Origin: Diaphorobacter sp. HDW4A
GTDB lineage: Bacteria > Pseudomonadota > Gammaproteobacteria > Burkholderiales > Burkholderiaceae_C
Assembly: GCF_011305995.1 (NCBI RefSeq)
Contig: NZ_CP049910.1
Coordinates: forward strand, 6,214,501 to 6,278,500
DNA length: 64,000 bases
Direction: 5' to 3'
Made by a program: the position numbers and the translations under genes. The notes beneath the pieces are model-generated. The model made no database searches, was not told where the DNA came from, and worked only from the letters and a program-made list of their open reading frames with translations. This document shows positions 2,837 through 61,807 of this stretch, piece after piece. How positions within the stretch are numbered: position 1 is the first letter of the stretch; each line of letters opens with the position of its first letter.

Positions 2837-5800
2837 ATGTCCAACTTCCAATTCCTCCACCCCGAATTCCGAGCCCTTCTAGAGCCCGCTGTCGGGGCGG
2901 AACAATTGGTTCGGTTGGACCCGCGCGCTGCCGTCATGCGCGCCCGGCACGCGCTGGAACGCGTCGTGCTCTGGCTCTACGACAACGACAACAGCCTGTG
3001 CATGCCCTACGACAAGGGCCTCAATACGCTGCTGACCCAGCCTGATTTTGCTCGGCTCGTACCTCCGCATGTTTTCGACAAGATGCGGCTGATTCAGCGG
3101 CAAGGCAATCAGGCGGTGCATTCGGGTTATGTGATCAATTCGCCCGAGGCCATCGGCATGGTACGCGAGCTGTTTCATGTGCTGTATTGGCTTGCGCGTA
3201 CCTACACGCGCATGTCGGACCCCAAGCAGATGGTGGCGGTGTGGAATGAGCGCAAGTTGCCCGTGCTGCTCAATGCCGACGAGGCGGTGCAGTTCACCCG
3301 CGAAGAACTCAAGCGGCAAGACGAGAAATTCCAGACCCAGTTCGCCGCACGCGCCAAGGAACTAGAAGCGCGTGAAGAGCAACTGAACGCCCAAGCCACC
3401 ACATTGGCCGAGCGCGAAGCGGCGTTGGCGCGCATCGACGCAGAACTGGCTGAACGCCGTGCCGAACTGGCGCGCGCCAAGGCCGCTGCCATCGCCGTGC
3501 CCGATACGCACGACTACAACGAGACCGATACGCGCCACCAGTTCATCGACATACTGCTGCGCGAAGCGGGTTGGGATGCGAGCGTGAACATGGGTGTGGA
3601 AGTGGTGGTGCCCGGCATGCCCAATACGCAGGGCGAAGGCGCTGCGGACTATGTGCTTTGGGCGGCAGACGGCAAGCCTGCGGCGGTGGTGGAGGCCAAG
3701 CGCACGTTCAAAGACCCGGAGATTGGCCGCCAGCAAGCCAAGTTGTACGCTGACGGACTGGAGGCCAAGTACGGCCAGCGTCCGCTGATCTACTACACCA
3801 ACGGGCATCGCACTTTCTTCTGGGACGACACCAGCGCGCCTCCGCGCGAAGCGCAGGGCTTTCATACACGCGATGAGCTGGCGCTGATCATCGAGCGCCG
3901 CTCGCTCAGGCAAGACCCGCGCGCGCTGGCGATTAATAACGACATCGTCGAGCGCCCGTATCAGCACCGTGCCATTCGCGCCATGCTGGAGGCCATGCAG
4001 CAAGGCCGTCGCCGTGGCTTGTTGACCATGGCGACCGGCACCGGTAAGACGCGCATGGCTGTGGCGCTGGTAGATGTGTTGATGCGCGCCAATCTGGTCA
4101 AGCGCGTACTGTTTCTGGCGGATCGCAAGGAGCTGGTGCGACAGGCTGCAGGCGCGTTCAAGACTTTTTTGGCAGACAGCAGCCCGGTCAATCTGCTGCT
4201 GGACAAGCACGGCCAAGGCCGTGTGTTCGTATCGACTTACCCGACGATGATGGGCTTGATCGATGAGTTGGCGGGCGATCAGGGCCGCGAGCGCCGAAGA
4301 TACGGCGTGGGCTTTTTCGATCTGGTGATCGTAGACGAGGCGCACCGCAGCGTGTATCAAAAGTACGGCGCGATCTTCCGCTACTTCGACAGCTATCTGG
4401 TGGGCCTCACGGCTACGCCGCGCGATGAGGTGGATCGCGATACCTATCACCTGTTCGGCCTGGAAACCGGCGTGCCGACGGACGCCTACGGGCTGGACGA
4501 AGCCGTGGCGGGCGGCTATCTGGTGCCGCCCAAGGCGTATGACGTACCGCTCAAGTTCGTGCGTGAGGGCATCAAGTACGACGAGCTTTCTGACGAAGAA
4601 AAAGAGCGCTGGGAGAGCACCGAATGGGGCGACCGTGCGGACGACGATGGTGACGCGCCGGACGAGATTTCGGCCAGCGAGATCAACAAGCAGCTGTTCA
4701 ACGAAAGCACCGTGGATTTGATGCTCAAGCACCTGATGGAGAACGGCCTTAAGGTGGATGGCGGCGACAAGCTGGGCAAGACCATCATCTTTGCCGTGAA
4801 CCAGAAGCATGCAGACTTCATCGCGCAGCGCTTTGATCATCACTATCCGCGACTCAAAGGCGACTTTGCGCGCGTGATCACGCATGCGGTGACCTACGCG
4901 CACACGCTGATCGACGATTTCAAGAGCCCGGAAAAGACGCCGCAGATCGCGATTTCCGTGGATATGCTGGACACGGGTATCGACGTGCCCGAAGTGTTGA
5001 ATCTGGTGTACTTCAAAGCCGTGCGATCGAAGGTGAAGTTCCTGCAGATGATTGGTCGCGGCACGCGGCTGTGCAAGGATTTGTTCGGGCCAGGGCAGGA
5101 CAAATCGGAATTTGCGATCTTCGATTACTGCGGCAATTTCGAGTACTTCAATGAGCACCCGGATGGCAGCAAATCGAGCGTGGCGGAGCCCCTCGGCAAG
5201 CGTTTGTTCAAGTCGCGCATCGATTTGCTGGTGCTGCTCAATGAGCGCAACACCGAATTGATGGTTGCAGAGCCGCGAGTGAAGTACGGAGATATCGACG
5301 AACCGCAAAGCGACGCTGAAGTGAAGTTCGATCTGCTCAAGCAATTGCATGGCGAAGTTGCGGCGATGAATCAGGATAATTTCATCGTCCGCACGGAGTT
5401 GGAGCATGTCACCCGGTTTGCAGATGCCAAGGCGTGGGTGCAGATGTCACATTCCGCGTTTGCCGATCTGCGCAACCATGTGGCTGGCCTGCCGTCGGAG
5501 CAAGAGGGCGAGCACATCACCGCGCGTCTCTTCGATCTGCTGTGCGTGAATCTGCAACTGGCACTGATCCGTCAAACCAGCGATTGGCCCAAGCTGCAAA
5601 TTCGTGTGATGGAAATCGCGGCCGATCTGGAGACCATGCAAGCGGTTCCTTCAATCAAGAACGAGTTGCCCTTGATTCAGGATGTGCAGAGCGAGGAATA
5701 CTGGAAAGACATCACCCTGCCCATGCTGGAGCGCATGCGGTGCCGGCTGCGTGGTCTGGTGAAGTTCATTGAGCGCAAATCCATCGACGTGGTCTATACC

Positions 5801-6331
5801 GTGTTGCAAGATGAGATGGGCGAGACAACGCCCGTGGAGCTCAAGGAGTACAGCACGGGTATCAATCTCGCGCAGTACCGCCGGAAGGTGGAGGCCTTTA
5901 TCCGTGCCAACGAGAACCATTTGGCTATTGCCAAACTCAAACATGCACGACCGCTTACCTCGACAGATTTGCAGCAACTAGAGCTGTTTTTCTTTAGCGC
6001 CCCCGAAGTGGGTGGTAGAGAGCGCTTCACCGAAACTTATGGGGAACAGTCGCTGCCTCGGTTCATTCGCTCGCTCGTGGGGCTGGACCGAGTTTCTGCG
6101 ATGGATGCGTTTGCTCGCTTCCTTGATGGCTCGCGCTATAGCAGCCAGCAGATTCGGTTTGTGGAAATGATCATCGATCGGCTGACCGCTAGTGGCGAGA
6201 TGGAGCCGGGGCAGCTATACGAACCGCCTTTTACCGCGATTCATCAGCATGGTTTGGACGGAGCCTTCGGCGATGCTGATGCGAATGCGGTGGTCGAGAT
6301 CGTAAATGAGTTAAATCGACTGGCGGCCTGA
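2837..6331 (+). CDS. hsdR: Type I restriction-modification system, restriction and translocase subunit R
   Basis: HsdR (1164 aa) is the ATP-driven translocase and nuclease of the complex. In order it shows a DUF4145-like N-terminal region (residues 1-120), a coiled-coil stretch rich in Glu, Ala and Arg (about 150-220), and an HSDR_N nuclease domain with the VVEAKRTF core near 286. Superfamily 2 helicase motifs follow: Walker A MATGTGKT near 396, DEAH near 499, and IGRGTRL near 739. A long EcoEI-type C-terminal domain completes it. The start ATG 2837 lies 15 bases after hsdS, so M, S and R form one operon. The frame is intact and all core motifs are present, so the enzyme is probably active. 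Confidence 0.94.
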   Translation: MSNFQFLHPEFRALLEPAVGAEQLVRLDPRAAVMRARHALERVVLWLYDNDNSLCMPYDKGLNTLLTQPDFARLVPPHVFDKMRLIQRQGNQAVHSGYVINSPEAIGMVRELFHVLYWLARTYTRMSDPKQMVAVWNERKLPVLLNADEAVQFTREELKRQDEKFQTQFAARAKELEAREEQLNAQATTLAEREAALARIDAELAERRAELARAKAAAIAVPDTHDYNETDTRHQFIDILLREAGWDASVNMGVEVVVPGMPNTQGEGAADYVLWAADGKPAAVVEAKRTFKDPEIGRQQAKLYADGLEAKYGQRPLIYYTNGHRTFFWDDTSAPPREAQGFHTRDELALIIERRSLRQDPRALAINNDIVERPYQHRAIRAMLEAMQQGRRRGLLTMATGTGKTRMAVALVDVLMRANLVKRVLFLADRKELVRQAAGAFKTFLADSSPVNLLLDKHGQGRVFVSTYPTMMGLIDELAGDQGRERRRYGVGFFDLVIVDEAHRSVYQKYGAIFRYFDSYLVGLTATPRDEVDRDTYHLFGLETGVPTDAYGLDEAVAGGYLVPPKAYDVPLKFVREGIKYDELSDEEKERWESTEWGDRADDDGDAPDEISASEINKQLFNESTVDLMLKHLMENGLKVDGGDKLGKTIIFAVNQKHADFIAQRFDHHYPRLKGDFARVITHAVTYAHTLIDDFKSPEKTPQIAISVDMLDTGIDVPEVLNLVYFKAVRSKVKFLQMIGRGTRLCKDLFGPGQDKSEFAIFDYCGNFEYFNEHPDGSKSSVAEPLGKRLFKSRIDLLVLLNERNTELMVAEPRVKYGDIDEPQSDAEVKFDLLKQLHGEVAAMNQDNFIVRTELEHVTRFADAKAWVQMSHSAFADLRNHVAGLPSEQEGEHITARLFDLLCVNLQLALIRQTSDWPKLQIRVMEIAADLETMQAVPSIKNELPLIQDVQSEEYWKDITLPMLERMRCRLRGLVKFIERKSIDVVYTVLQDEMGETTPVELKEYSTGINLAQYRRKVEAFIRANENHLAIAKLKHARPLTSTDLQQLELFFFSAPEVGGRERFTETYGEQSLPRFIRSLVGLDRVSAMDAFARFLDGSRYSSQQIRFVEMIIDRLTASGEMEPGQLYEPPFTAIHQHGLDGAFGDADANAVVEIVNELNRLAA

Positions 6332-48472: not shown

Positions 48473-48874
48473 ATGCGTACACTCGTCCGCATGACCAACA
48501 AGCTCCCGCCGTTCTCTCCCAACTCCTTCACGATCTACCACAACGCCCGCTGCAGCAATTCGCGCGGTGCGCTCGCCATCTTGCGCGAACATGGCATTGA
48601 ACCGCAGATCATCGACTACATTGCCGAGCCGCTTTCCGTGGAGCAACTTGAGACGCTGATCCAGAAACTGGGCATGCCGGTGCGCGATGTGATGCGTGCC
48701 AAGGAAGACATCTACAAAACTTTGAAACTGGATACCGAAACGGTGACGGATGCACAGCTTCTGGAGGCGATCGTCGCGCATCCCGTGCTGCTCAATCGCC
48801 CCATCGTGGTGCATGGGCAGCGCGCGCTCCTCTGCAGGCCGCCAGAGCAAGTTTTGCAGTTTTTGACAAATTGA
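48473..48874 (+). CDS. arsC: ArsC-family arsenate reductase-like protein
   Basis: This 133-aa thioredoxin-fold protein has the ArsC active site NARCSNSRGA with its nucleophilic Cys near residue 27. The arsenate-binding Arg region follows (QKLGMPVRDVMRAKE, then HPVLLNRPIVVHGQRALLCRPPE). It would reduce arsenate with glutathione and glutaredoxin. No ars operon neighbours are present, so a housekeeping role such as the Spx-like or YffB-like proteins is possible. Start ATG 48473 or ATG 48491; the choice does not affect the fold. Confidence 0.85.
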   Translation: MRTLVRMTNKLPPFSPNSFTIYHNARCSNSRGALAILREHGIEPQIIDYIAEPLSVEQLETLIQKLGMPVRDVMRAKEDIYKTLKLDTETVTDAQLLEAIVAHPVLLNRPIVVHGQRALLCRPPEQVLQFLTN

Positions 48875-49114: not shown

Positions 49115-50524
49115 ATGCAAAGCAACGACTGCTTGGTGGTCACGGAATTTGGCGCGGCATTTGGTGCCAAAGTCGTTCTGGCGGATGTGGAATTCACCCT
49201 TGCCAGAAGCACCATCACTGCGCTGATGGGGCCTTCCGGTTCCGGCAAGTCCACCATCCTGCATTCACTGGCGGGCACCTATGCCGGCCATCCCCGCTAC
49301 CGTTCGTGGGGTCAGGTGCAGTATCTGGAGCATCCTCTTGCTGACGACAACCGCCCGCAGCTTGTGCAGCAGCATGTGCGCGTAGTTGCGGGCTCCGTGC
49401 AGGACGCGCTCGTCGAACATGTGCGCGAACAGCTCAGCCTCTCACCTGCAGCGCTGCACCAATGGTGCGTGGACTACCTGCGCGAAGCGGGCTTTCCTGA
49501 TCTGGAGTCGCTGCTGGACAAGCCGTTCACCGAGCTGACCGATGTGCAGATGCGCGCGGTCGCCATTCTGCGCGAGGCCGCGCCGCAACCGGCCCTGCTG
49601 CTGATCGATGAACCCACCGCCGAACTCGATGAGTACGATGCCTTCCTGCTCGTGGACCTGATGCGCCAGTTGGCTCGCAAGATGTCGCTGCTGGTGGTCA
49701 CGCACAACCAGAAGCAGGCAAGGCGCCTCGCGCACCGCGTGATTCTGGTGGCTGGTGGTCGCATTCAGGAGACACGCAGCGCCGAGGATTTCTTCAACGC
49801 TCCGATCACTGAAGCGGGTGCGCAATTCATCCGCACCGGCAATTGCGCCGTAGCCTCGCTGGACGCTGACCCGCTGACGCTGGCCGAAGGCGTTCCCGCA
49901 CCGGCACCGCTGCCCATCGAAGCACTTGCGGGTCGGTCTCGCAGCCATGCGTCTGAAGTCGAAGTCGCCTCGATGAAGGCCATCTCATTGACCGGTGACT
50001 TGCCCACTTTGAACGGATCAACGCAGATCGCTCCAGCGGCTATGGCCTCATCGAGTGGCCCCACTGGATTTCTCTGGGTAGTTCCGGGAACGCTCGCGGG
50101 CGCCGCGATGCCCGGTATCGTGGATGACATGGACCACGATCTCGCGCTGCTCAAGCGCGTCGGCATCACCACGCTCATCACGCTGACGGAGCGCGACATC
50201 GATCAGGAAGCGCTCGCACGCCACCAGCTCAAGAACGTGCACCTGCCGGTGTACGACCGCGAGGCGCCGAGCCTTGGGCAGATCCAGATGCTGCTCAAGC
50301 GCATGGAGATTCTGGTGGGCCGTGGCGAGGTGCTTGCTGTGCATTGCCTCGGCGGCCTCGGCCGTACGGGCACCGTGCTCACCGCATGGCTGATCCGCGA
50401 AGGATTGACAGCTCAGGAGGCCTTGCGCCGCGTGCGCCTGCTCGATCCTCGGTATGTGCAAAGCGCCGAGCAGGAGGCGTTCTTGCAGCAATACGAAGAG
50501 CTGATTCTGCAAAAAATCATTTGA
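49115..50524 (+). CDS. Fusion of an ABC-type ATPase and a dual-specificity (Cys-based) protein phosphatase
   Basis: This 469-aa protein joins two domains rarely seen together. Residues 1-220 are an ABC ATPase with Walker A GPSGSGKST (39-47), Walker B LLLIDEPTAELDE (Asp165, Glu166) and the switch His197 in VVTHNQ. The usual LSGGQ signature is replaced by LTDVQ. Residues 221-310 are a Pro/Ala-rich linker. Residues 315-469 are a phosphatase of the dual-specificity type, with HCLGGLGRTGT (His410, nucleophile Cys411, Arg417) and a candidate acid Asp in VYDREAP. No membrane segments or permease gene are nearby, so it is unlikely to be a transporter. A roadblock-like gene follows after 29 bases. ATG 49115 is chosen because the ABC fold begins there. 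Confidence 0.85.
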   Translation: MQSNDCLVVTEFGAAFGAKVVLADVEFTLARSTITALMGPSGSGKSTILHSLAGTYAGHPRYRSWGQVQYLEHPLADDNRPQLVQQHVRVVAGSVQDALVEHVREQLSLSPAALHQWCVDYLREAGFPDLESLLDKPFTELTDVQMRAVAILREAAPQPALLLIDEPTAELDEYDAFLLVDLMRQLARKMSLLVVTHNQKQARRLAHRVILVAGGRIQETRSAEDFFNAPITEAGAQFIRTGNCAVASLDADPLTLAEGVPAPAPLPIEALAGRSRSHASEVEVASMKAISLTGDLPTLNGSTQIAPAAMASSSGPTGFLWVVPGTLAGAAMPGIVDDMDHDLALLKRVGITTLITLTERDIDQEALARHQLKNVHLPVYDREAPSLGQIQMLLKRMEILVGRGEVLAVHCLGGLGRTGTVLTAWLIREGLTAQEALRRVRLLDPRYVQSAEQEAFLQQYEELILQKII

Positions 50525-50553: not shown

Positions 50554-50958
50554 ATGAGTTTTGACGACGCTTTGAACAAGGCGGCCGCGTCCGTGCCTGA
50601 GTGCGTGGCTGCCGGGTATGTGGACGTGGCATCTGGCATGCTGCTGTCGCTGAAGACGGTGGATTCGCATCCACGCCAGGTCATTGACCTGCTTGCCGCC
50701 GCCACCGCTGACATGTTCAACGGCCCCAACGTGAGCACCATCGAACGCATGTTCAAAAAGGCCCGTGGTCTGCAGGACGATGGCTATCACTACTTTCAGG
50801 AAATCATCGTGAACAGCGAAAATCTGATCCACGTGTTCCTGCGCGGCAAGATCAATCCTGAATATGTCGCTGTGTTCGTCTGCCGCAAGACTGCCAACCT
50901 CGGCATGGCTCTGACCAAGGCGCGTCTGGCGATGCCAGCACTGGAAGCGGCGTTCTGA
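50554..50958 (+). CDS. Small roadblock/LC7-like protein
   Basis: This 134-aa protein alternates helices and strands in the manner of the roadblock/LC7 fold: LNKAAASVPECVAAGYVDVASGMLL (helix then strands, about residues 7-31), a long helix around IDLLAAATADMF, and strands EIIVNSENLIHVFLRG and YVAVFVCRK before a closing helix. Roadblock proteins in bacteria dimerise and often regulate small GTPases or other NTPases. Its position 29 bases behind the ABC-phosphatase gene, with CGGAG ahead of the start, suggests one operon and a shared pathway. The fold call is by eye and moderate in certainty. Confidence 0.7.
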   Translation: MSFDDALNKAAASVPECVAAGYVDVASGMLLSLKTVDSHPRQVIDLLAAATADMFNGPNVSTIERMFKKARGLQDDGYHYFQEIIVNSENLIHVFLRGKINPEYVAVFVCRKTANLGMALTKARLAMPALEAAF

Positions 50959-50993
50959 TGGCCTGATGCCACACCTCGCCATTGAAAACAAGA

Positions 50994-51023
50994 AAGGGGC
51001 TTCCGCAAGGAGGTCTTTTTTTT
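50994..51023 (+). terminator. Probable terminator after the roadblock-like gene
   Basis: AAGGGGCTTCC pairs with GGAGGTCTTT, partly by G-T pairs, around GCAA, followed by a long T run. Confidence 0.6.
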
Positions 51024-51164
51024 GACTGGATGTCTCCGCATTCAAATCATGGAGCGACGCTGCGCGCTCAAAAAGGCATCCTAAGTCAGGCTTAAGTATC
51101 AGTCTTCAAACTTGCTTTCCATGGAACTCCGGTAGAGGTCCGAGTAGAGGAAAGGTTGCTTGAG

Positions 51165-59238: not shown

Positions 59239-60096
59239 ATGCCTCAAATCGTCGTAGATCAGTTGCGCAAGTCTTATCGCATCCACGAGCGCGACCCCGG
59301 TGTGTCGGGTGCGCTCAAGGCGATGCTGCGTCCTCGCTATCGTTCGGTGCAGGCGCTCGACGGGGTGTCGTTTGCGCTGGAGCGCGGCGAGGTGCTGGGT
59401 TTCATCGGGCCCAACGGGGCGGGTAAGTCCACCACGATCAAGATTCTTTCGGGCATTCTGCGTCCCGACGACGGGAGCGTGCGCATCGATGGGTGCGATC
59501 CGTTCGAGGATCGCGAGCGCCATGTGGCGCGCATTGGTGTGGTCTTTGGGCAGCGCACGCAGCTGTGGTGGGATTTGCCGGTGGGCGATGGATTTCATCT
59601 GTTGCGCGACATCTACCGCGTCGACCCGCAGCGGTTTACGCGTACGCGCGATGAGCTGGTGGCCTTGCTCAAGCTGGACAAGTTGCTTGATCAGCCGGTA
59701 CGCCAGTTGTCGCTCGGTCAGCGCATGCGCGCGGAGATCGCGGCGGCCTTGCTGCATGAGCCCGAGATTTTGTTTCTTGACGAGCCGACGATCGGCCTTG
59801 ATGCTCCCTCCAAACTCGCGGTGCGCGAGTTCGTGCTGCGTGCCAATCGCGAACATGGCACGACGGTGCTGCTGACAACACACGACATGCACGACATCGA
59901 GGCCTTGGCCGAGCGCGTGATCGTGATCGGCCACGGACGTGTGCTGGCGGATTGCGCGGTGGATGCGTTGCGTGCGCAGGTGGAGGATGCACGCCGTTTG
60001 GATGACGGCTTGCCGGGCGATGCCGACGAGAAGGGATTGACCATTGAAGCCGTGATCGCGCGGTTCTACGCCATGCATGGCGCGGCGGAGGCCTGA
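59239..60096 (+). CDS. ABC-2 type exporter ATP-binding protein
   Basis: This 285-aa ATPase has Walker A GPNGAGKST (about residues 56-64), the GRTVGVVFGQ-like Q-loop (VVFGQRTQLWWDLP), signature LSLGQRMR, Walker B ILFLDEPTIGLD and switch His in TTHDMHD. The N-terminal region (RKSYRIHERDPGVSGALKAMLR) is typical of the COG4586 subgroup of uncharacterised exporters. It lies six bases before the first of two permease genes. Its substrate is unknown. The gene begins 150 bases from the tRNA on the other strand. Confidence 0.92.
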   Translation: MPQIVVDQLRKSYRIHERDPGVSGALKAMLRPRYRSVQALDGVSFALERGEVLGFIGPNGAGKSTTIKILSGILRPDDGSVRIDGCDPFEDRERHVARIGVVFGQRTQLWWDLPVGDGFHLLRDIYRVDPQRFTRTRDELVALLKLDKLLDQPVRQLSLGQRMRAEIAAALLHEPEILFLDEPTIGLDAPSKLAVREFVLRANREHGTTVLLTTHDMHDIEALAERVIVIGHGRVLADCAVDALRAQVEDARRLDDGLPGDADEKGLTIEAVIARFYAMHGAAEA

Positions 60097-60102
60097 GCGC
60101 TC

Positions 60103-60960
60103 ATGAGTCACGCTTGGCATATGACTTGGAAGAACCTTGCCCGTCCCTACGTGGCCGCGTTCGCATCGCGCTTTCTACAGATGCTGCAGTACCGCACAGC
60201 CGCGTGGGCGGGCTTTGCCACGCAGTGCTGGTGGGGCGGCATCAAGGTCATGGTGCTCACGGCGTTCTATGGCGGTGCGAGTGCGGCGGTGGGTGTGCCC
60301 ATGTCGCTGCAGCATGCCATCACCTACACCTGGCTGGCGCAAGGGCTGCTCGCCTTGCTTCCGTGGATGGGCGATCCCGAGGTCGCGCAGGCGGTGCGCA
60401 CCGGGTCGATTGCGTATGACCGGCTGCGACCGGTCGATGCCTATGTGCTGTGGTTTGTGCGCACGACCGGCTGGATCGCGGCGCGCGTGCTGCCGCGTCT
60501 TGCGTTGATGCTCGCGTTTGCGGCCGTGGTGCTGCCGCTGGCAGGCATGGGGCAATGGGGCTGGCAGCCGCCCGCAGGCATGTTGGCGCTGCTCGGATTT
60601 GTCATTTCGATGCTGCTTGCGCTGCTTCTTTCCGCAGCGCTGGTCATGCTGCTCAACATCGCCGTGGTATCCGCGCTCAACGAACGCGGCATCAACACCT
60701 TGGCCGTGCCGGTGGTGATCGTACTGTCGGGCAATCTGCTGCCGCTCACGCTGATGCCCGATGCGTGGCAGATGTTTCTGCTGGTGCAGCCACTGGCGGG
60801 GGTAATCGATATTCCTGCGCGCATCTATTTCGGCCAGATGGCGGGCGTGAATATGCTCGTGGTGCTGGCGTTGCAGGCGCTGTGGATTGCGTTGCTGGTG
60901 GTCTTTGGTCGTGCGGTGCTTGCGCGTACGATGCGGCGGCTGGAAGTGCAGGGCGGGTGA
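60103..60960 (+). CDS. ABC-2 type permease, first subunit
   Basis: This 285-aa membrane protein has about six hydrophobic segments, with ITYTWLAQGLLALLPW and the PLAGVIDIPARIYFGQMAG motif near the end. These are characteristic of COG4587 permeases, which always occur with a COG4586 ATPase and a COG3694 permease, exactly the order here. It starts six bases after the ATPase and ends four bases before the second permease. Confidence 0.9.
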   Translation: MSHAWHMTWKNLARPYVAAFASRFLQMLQYRTAAWAGFATQCWWGGIKVMVLTAFYGGASAAVGVPMSLQHAITYTWLAQGLLALLPWMGDPEVAQAVRTGSIAYDRLRPVDAYVLWFVRTTGWIAARVLPRLALMLAFAAVVLPLAGMGQWGWQPPAGMLALLGFVISMLLALLLSAALVMLLNIAVVSALNERGINTLAVPVVIVLSGNLLPLTLMPDAWQMFLLVQPLAGVIDIPARIYFGQMAGVNMLVVLALQALWIALLVVFGRAVLARTMRRLEVQGG

Positions 60961-60964
60961 GGAG

Positions 60965-61807
60965 ATGAAGTCCGGTTCGACCTCCAACCATACCAATCGA
61001 TCCATGGGATCGTTGCGTCTGTTCATGCGATTGGCAGGCGCGTCGATCAGCGGGCAGGCGCGCTATCCCGGATCCGCCGTCATGCTGACGTTCGGCCAGT
61101 TCCTCGTCACCGGAATCGAAGTGGTTGCGGTCTGGGCGCTGTTTCATCGCTTCGGGGATGTGCAGGGCTGGCGCATCGGCGAGGTGGCGCTGTTCTATGG
61201 AGTGGTCAACTGCATGTTCGCACTGGCCGACATGCTGGGGCGCGGCTTTGATGTGCTGGGCACCGAGTTTCTGCGCACCGGCGCGTTCGATAGATTGCTG
61301 CTGCGCCCGCGCTCCGTGGCGGTGCAGCTCATGGGGCACGATGTGCGCGTCAGCCGACTCGGGCGCTTTCTGCAAGGGGTAGCGGTGATTTGTTTTGCGA
61401 CCGTGCAGATGGGCATCGTCTGGACGCCGGCTCACATCGTGGTCGCGCTGTTCGCGCTGACGGGTGGCATCGCGCTGTTCCTCGGGATTCTCGTGCTTCA
61501 GGGCACGCTGTCGTTCTGGACCGTGCAAAGCCTCGAGGTGGCCAACGTGCTCACCTACGGCGGCGTCGAGGCCGCGCAGTACCCGCTCGCGATCTACGCG
61601 CGCTGGTTTCGGAGCGTGCTCACGTTTGCCGTGCCGCTCGCGGCGGTGGCGTACTACCCGGTGCTGACGATTCTCGGCAAGGCCGATCCGTTGGGCGCGC
61701 CGGACTGGGTGGGCACCGTCTCGCCACTGGCGGGTTTTGCGTTTCTCGCAGTCTCGCTGTGGGTGTGGCGATTCGGCTTGCGGCATTACGCGTCGACCGG
61801 GAGCTGA
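60965..61807 (+). CDS. ABC-2 type permease, second subunit
   Basis: This 280-aa COG3694-like permease has about six hydrophobic segments, including FYGVVNCMFALADMLGRGFD and VEAAQYPLAIYARWFRSVLTFAVPLAAVAYYP-type closing helices, here spanning roughly residues 205-235. It should pair with the first permease to form the channel of the exporter. ATG 60965 follows GGTGAGGAG; frames upstream lie within the preceding gene. Confidence 0.9.
   Translation: MKSGSTSNHTNRSMGSLRLFMRLAGASISGQARYPGSAVMLTFGQFLVTGIEVVAVWALFHRFGDVQGWRIGEVALFYGVVNCMFALADMLGRGFDVLGTEFLRTGAFDRLLLRPRSVAVQLMGHDVRVSRLGRFLQGVAVICFATVQMGIVWTPAHIVVALFALTGGIALFLGILVLQGTLSFWTVQSLEVANVLTYGGVEAAQYPLAIYARWFRSVLTFAVPLAAVAYYPVLTILGKADPLGAPDWVGTVSPLAGFAFLAVSLWVWRFGLRHYASTGS

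Follow-up and report, generated by a model that had tools for sequence, protein, structure and literature searches.

In the window, by which we mean the whole 64,000-nucleotide stretch of DNA that was analysed, a gene joining an ABC-type P-loop domain to a Cys-dependent phosphatase (49115-50524, + strand; hereafter the fusion) is followed by a small gene, rb (50554-50958, + strand), for a 134-residue protein with a predicted MglB/Roadblock fold. We propose, with a probability of roughly 0.6, that the fusion and rb form one signalling unit related to the MglA/MglB-type operons, in which the fusion would be the enzyme and its phosphatase the output. The rb gene starts 29 bp after the fusion stop codon on the same strand. 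The preliminary description of this DNA took the fusion as a gene on its own and missed the partner on its 3' side; the fusion appears instead as half of a two-gene unit. Roadblock proteins pair with Ras-like GTPases in settings as different as bacterial MglA and the Rag-Ragulator complex, and the titles of PDB entries agree with this. We place the pair in an MglA/Roadblock module because rb is predicted to have such a fold, because in 23 of 24 loci rb lies next to the fusion in the same orientation, and because MglA is found near the pair in 6 of the 24. The fusion thus probably belongs to bacterial small-GTPase/MglA-Roadblock signalling, as an enzyme that has so far gone unrecognised. If Roadblock and ABC-phosphatase do form a conserved unit, bacterial small-GTPase modules would gain a defined enzymatic output, and what Group 3-like mgl operons act on would become testable.

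The fusion frame runs uninterrupted from the ATG at 49115 to the TGA at 50524 and encodes 469 amino acids. It had been described as a single frame rather than two adjacent genes, and this holds: the joined gene recurs in 24 tabulated loci (the window, L001, L042-L057 and L129-L134) from 23 genomes, so that neither an assembly error or frameshift nor homologues that are always two separate genes can account for it. A protein search with the fusion returned 1555 proteins at E <= 1e-3, a count that comes from the 7996 best candidates scored and may include plain ABC ATPases. A census of proteins with both domains, as earlier proposed, found ABC_tran together with PTP-SAK in all 120 proteins among the matches listed, the window's own included, according to a precomputed Pfam column. 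The claim that no system with this architecture has been described stood as far as our literature search reached, in which coverage of subscription papers was limited and no description of an ABC-phosphatase fusion was found; the architecture itself is nevertheless common to the 120 listed proteins. Few relatives are named, and their names were assigned automatically ('ATP-binding cassette domain-containing protein' or 'atypical dual specificity phosphatase', for example); named relatives occur in Diaphorobacter ruginosibacter (77%) and D. caeni (89%). Within its own genome the fusion is the only protein spanning both halves among the matches listed, and a scan of genome contigs with the fusion gave four loci, one of them a close relative. 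One candidate, L003 from Breoghania, was excluded from the 24, as no single frame holds both halves and a search for rb there gave nothing; at this locus an ABC ATPase with ISGGQ adjoins transporter-like genes, with separate phosphatase pieces close by.

The suggested structure prediction of the full chain (AlphaFold2) gave two well-predicted domains with a mean pLDDT of 89.2 and a pTM of 0.62. The linker between them (residues 245-315; 49847-50059, + strand) includes residues 286-312 with pLDDT below 50, which is very low confidence, and this part is probably disordered in view of the model. The C-terminal domain (residues 318-461; 50066-50497, + strand) is a dual-specificity-type Cys phosphatase by Pfam, PDB relatives and motifs, with PTP-SAK at 318-437 (E 7.3e-21) and DSPc at 340-461 (E 1.6e-9), both over the cut-off. 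Its phosphatase loop reads HC-L-G-G-L-G-R, with C411 and R417, and D381 is likely the general acid. The HC-x5-R site had been called intact; it is present in the window with C411 and is kept in 24 of 24 fusion loci, the upstream Asp in 23 of 24, and the window has both. Among the listed proteins, the window's own included, C411 is found in 119 of 120 and R417 in 120 of 120. The nearest phosphatases in the PDB are 25xa (E 1.2e-27), ShufPTP (4.7e-19) and human DUSP23 (2.8e-18), with archaeal SsoPTP also among them. The closest solved relatives of this part are small Cys phosphatases such as DUSP23/VHZ and SsoPTP; they are chains of about 150-160 residues, whereas here the phosphatase is the C-terminal part of 469 residues.

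The N-terminal ABC-type domain (residues 5-241; 49127-49837, + strand) is supported by Pfam, NCBIfam, the motifs in the 24 loci, the model and Foldseek; Pfam places ABC_tran at 22-169 (E 1.4e-17, over the cut-off) and the model gives mostly pLDDT above 90. The preliminary description called it a complete P-loop ABC domain. Walker A (GPSGSGKST, with the K45 codon at 49247-49249), Walker B (LLLIDEPT) and the switch His (H197) were read correctly, including the residue numbers, but the ABC ATPase is not complete: the LSGGQ position in the window reads LTDVQ (residues 141-145). This motif is degenerate in 24 of 24 fusion loci, none of which has both glycines; one of the two glycines remains in L046, L129, L131 and L132. 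Control ABC ATPases of the same genome have LSGGQ (six) or ISGGM (one) in 7 of 7 fetched, and LSGGQ is present in 5 of 6 ABC matches from other genomes, the sixth (L122) having no match to the pattern. In ordinary ABC dimers, the LSGGQ motif of one subunit supplies the missing part of the other subunit's ATP site. Because the motif is lost, the ordinary ATP-sandwich dimer chemistry is doubtful, and the fusion may not hydrolyse ATP, a point against the main reading.

The loss of LSGGQ in every locus would fit a pseudo-ATPase scaffold, in which the ABC domain has given up ATP hydrolysis and serves solely to position the phosphatase, rb acts as a structural clamp and the unit is constitutive rather than a switch. 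We consider such a scaffold rather improbable, since all 24 fusion loci retain the Walker A Lys, the Walker B Asp-Glu and the switch His, and K45, D165-E166 and the Q-loop Gln (Q86) are each found in 120 of 120 listed proteins, the window's own included, with H197 in 117 of 120; these residues would be needless in a dead enzyme.

Among known families, the ABC domain is closest to PstB, which is the top family in NCBIfam (TIGR00972, E 3.9e-33; next family 1.5e-22), the best Foldseek match (9k3s, E 5.5e-21) and among the best PDB sequence matches of the fusion. These are the grounds on which the fusion might be taken for a regulatory subunit of a transporter, for instance in phosphate uptake, yet we regard this as highly improbable: the PstB profile scores 114.8 bits, far below the family cut-off of 343.2, LSGGQ is lost, and no permease is found among the shared neighbours of 19 loci. 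The fusion also differs from PstB in its C-terminal phosphatase. The earlier remark that no permease is nearby was right for the immediate neighbours of the fusion; 8.7 kb downstream (59239-61807), visual inspection shows an ABC-2-type ATPase accompanied by its own pair of permease-like genes.

The same intact Walker motifs and lack of a shared permease could also speak for an ATP-driven remodelling enzyme that acts on DNA, the ribosome or protein complexes, with the phosphatase as its reset and rb as an adaptor. In this respect AAA_21 passes the Pfam cut-off on the fusion (33.6 versus 27 bits), with SMC_N under it (30.2 versus 40). We find remodelling unlikely, because there is one ABC domain only, the signature is degenerate, the best profile and the best fold are those of PstB, and relatives are located in signalling operons. 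Signalling, DNA or protein remodelling had been offered together as possible roles; the MglA/MglB-type operons in some relatives favour signalling and point away from remodelling.

The identity of rb came from its fold. A search of Pfam listed no family at E <= 10, Robl_LC7 included, although the HMMER filters drop most weak matches, and a search of the PDB by sequence gave nothing meaningful; the fold comparison alone gave matches. The AlphaFold2 model of rb has a pLDDT of 84, and its top Foldseek matches are MglB proteins (1j3w, E 3.5e-7, probability 1.00) with TM scores of 0.69-0.70. The model resembles MglB of Thermus and Myxococcus as well as other Roadblock proteins, and by this predicted structure rb is a protein of the MglB/Roadblock fold. 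An hhalign comparison of rb with classical Roadblocks was partial (80%, 56 columns), which we count against the main reading; one relative of rb (P0214) is labelled 'Roadblock/LC7 domain-containing protein' by one source. Downstream of rb, a hairpin ending in a U-run (50989-51024, + strand; -20.1 kcal/mol versus -8.8 for shuffles, z -4.8) is, from its sequence, the probable intrinsic terminator of the two-gene unit; a pattern scan did not list it.

Across genomes, the pairing of the fusion with rb is close. Where rb adjoins the fusion, the gaps are about -11 to 132 bp, with the fusion leading in 19 loci and rb in 4; only L056 (G066) departs from the pairing. A further locus outside the 24, L192 (G744), also has the two genes adjoining. 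In a neighbour clustering of 19 loci (16 with the fusion and 3 with rb only), the next most common real neighbours, which are ArsC-family proteins, HtrA and response regulators, were found in 5-7. Among the matches listed in 200 family genomes, 15 genomes have both genes, one the fusion only, one rb only and 183 neither (Fisher p 1.7e-20). Among those listed in 369 class genomes, a strong full-length fusion is found in 7, and rb adjoins it in 7 of 7; 212 of the 369 passed E 1e-35, and the matches listed below the seven strong ones cover the ABC part and at most the linker. An eighth class genome with a close rb (G564) has a fusion that was found by reading the locus, an example of the weak fusions that the genome census may miss. 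In 398 phylum genomes the fusion is found in 4 at E <= 1e-60; three of the 4 belong to the family and the fourth lies elsewhere in the class. The family, class and phylum samples overlap, and the candidates scored per genome were 8 for the family fusion search, up to 11 for the class rb search and 4 for the class and phylum fusion searches.

The pairwise distances of fusion and rb over 23 loci are correlated (r 0.77, with 0 of 5000 permutations as high), a comparison that ignores species descent. Relative to the window, identity over 22 loci is 59-99% for rb and 32-91% for the fusion, and this much stronger conservation of rb is another point in favour of the scaffold considered above. At L047 an apparent joining of the fusion to rb was rejected, as the long frame holding rb is a shadow frame. 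The fusion at L056 (5858-7033) is shorter, lies without rb and has no phosphatase Asp, which counts against the main reading; by eye, it comes after a gene for a 1820-residue toxin-like protein and a few kb before flagellar genes.

In some of the loci a small GTPase accompanies the pair. A gene for an MglA-like small GTPase of about 180 residues adjoins the fusion in L129, L130, L132, L133 and L057, the last within the family, and in L134 such a gene and rb are about 0.8 kb apart; five of these six loci (all but L132) also contain a second, classical Roadblock. In an alignment of 12 GTPases, the P-loop GxxGxGK[ST] is found in 11 and the twelfth is cut short; the G3 motif is GTPGQ in 10 of 12, GSPGQ in one and GLPGQ in one, without the usual Asp. 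Against the main reading, MglA had no match in 18 of the 24 loci, the window included, within about 6 kb on each side, one of the 18 (L052) being a contig of 5.1 kb only. In L130 and L132 the GTPase gene is preceded by a gene for 357-384 residues, whose product is a homologue of the protein found at this position in eight other mgl-type operons (hhalign 99.3%, E 2.4e-20). This receiver-like protein had weak tblastn matches in L129 (65 bits) and L133 (53 bits) and no match at the window locus.

In beta/gamma-Proteobacteria, the MglA systems of Group 3 combine MglA with one or two MglB homologues and an uncharacterised protein whose N-terminus resembles a receiver (PMC4316618; Wuichet and Sogaard-Andersen 2014). 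By gene content, L130 and L132 show the same gene set plus the fusion, but L132 is without a classical Roadblock besides rb, and 17 of 18 family fusion loci, the window included, have no adjoining MglA. The main text of PMC4316618 names a phosphatase 0 times, whereas a phosphatase is part of the system here; according to that text, 830 ABC protein sequences were excluded as noise. In Snodgrassella, according to PMC11112851, an orphan mglB is linked to type IV pilus motility, and the mglA there belongs to Group 3. The actinobacterial conservons (CvnA-D), as described in PMC4316618 and PMC13343842, likewise combine a small GTPase, a Roadblock protein and a signalling enzyme in an operon, but their enzyme is a histidine kinase, whereas here it is an ABC-phosphatase fusion.

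In the plain version of the main reading, the switch may be MglA, supplied from the same operon or from a separate locus. MglA is found somewhere in 9 of the 15 family genomes with both fusion and rb, the window's included. The second case may apply to the window's genome, where L190:6122-8339, about 300 kb off, encodes a 242-residue protein, an MglA-like GTPase, a Roadblock and a Roadblock-like 151-residue protein, the first and last called by eye. In the other six of the 15 genomes (G136, G003, G126, G129, G152 and G135; completeness 92-100%), MglA was not detected, and a Roadblock at the level of Pfam is also absent from G136, G126, G129 and G135. These six keep the pair, and the ABC domain itself may be the NTPase of rb. 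It would then form an ATP-powered Roadblock switch in Burkholderiales, with the ABC domain in place of the Ras-like GTPase and the phosphatase output built in. We put this forward as a tentative variant, less likely than not, with the presence of MglA in nine genomes against it; divergent Roadblocks have perhaps been missed as well, since rb itself escapes Pfam. If the ABC domain is the switch, we know of no earlier Roadblock protein that serves an ABC-type ATPase.

How the unit of fusion and rb might work can be outlined as follows. The PstB-like ABC domain, having lost its permease and its signature, would retain ATP binding and take on a nucleotide-dependent regulatory role, and the flexible linker would join it to an active Cys-dependent protein phosphatase as the output. 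By analogy with MglB, rb would bind an NTPase whose nucleotide state governs the phosphatase: it would dock on the ABC domain, and on MglA where present, and relay the switch state to the phosphatase, which would then dephosphorylate a protein substrate. We infer in this scheme the ATP binding, the physical contact, the direction of control and the substrate.

Copies of rb are also found without the fusion (L077, L078 and L079), so that rb can work without it, which counts against the main reading. At L079:6974-7378 (G126), such a copy lies between two large genes that appear autotransporter-like by eye. G018 has another rb at L078:7339-7803 that shares 93% identity with the window's and stands amid prophage-like genes (primase/helicase-like and terminase-like by eye). 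The prophage-like setting in G018 is one of the signs of a phage-defence or toxin-type effector, together with a match of the fusion to Pfam Tc-R-P, whose description refers to a phosphatase from polymorphic toxin systems, and 11 PADLOC matches of the fusion, of which mad3 has E 2.7e-18. A defence or toxin role is very unlikely nonetheless: all PADLOC matches are confined to the ABC part (residues 17-214), rb gave no PADLOC match, phage records had no match to rb and plasmid records none to the fusion, and the same flanking genes, pyrB and pyrC among them, are found in the window and in L001, L042 and L043, its three nearest relatives. In PHROGs, the fusion gave matches in the ABC region and one to a PHROG labelled thymidylate synthase (E 3.3e-9, residues 373-462).

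Distant relatives of rb came from 16 genomes with matches and were followed in 14 loci (L135-L148), G263 and G544 being left out; no fusion was found in the 14 loci. An alignment of 13 of these relatives matched rb at 99.3%. MglA and a classical Roadblock adjoin the distant relative in 10 of the 14, and in 8 of the 14 the relative is adjoined by a gene for a calcineurin-like phosphoesterase protein, three assigned by Pfam (L137:6113-7630, L139:7185-8765 and L144:5247-6815) and the rest by tblastn. These proteins have about 505-526 residues, with the phosphoesterase at the C-terminus and an N-terminal half to which no domain is assigned. Because the phosphoesterase gene is convergent with the rb-type gene in 7 of the 8 loci, the two are not in one operon there. 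At L135:3268-5061 (G375), a PP2C phosphatase gene is directly followed by two tandem rb-type genes, with no MglA match in the stretch. The recurrence of phosphatases near rb-type genes is suggestive only as to function.

Other neighbours vary from locus to locus. An ArsC-family gene (48473-48874) lies upstream of the fusion in the window, and such genes are near the fusion in 8 family loci at varying positions. At L051:26-6106 (G129), the fusion and rb come after two genes recognised by eye, one of them chemosensory and CheA/Pil-Chp-like, the other for a receiver. Truncated-globin genes or domains are located near the fusion and rb at L129:4360-5937, L130:5922-6557, L132:4665-6248 and L052:4715-5086, a hint of a redox or gas signal. 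The globin of L129 is joined to ferredoxin and reductase domains by Pfam, and L132 has a tblastn match to a protein of that type at 4686-6248.
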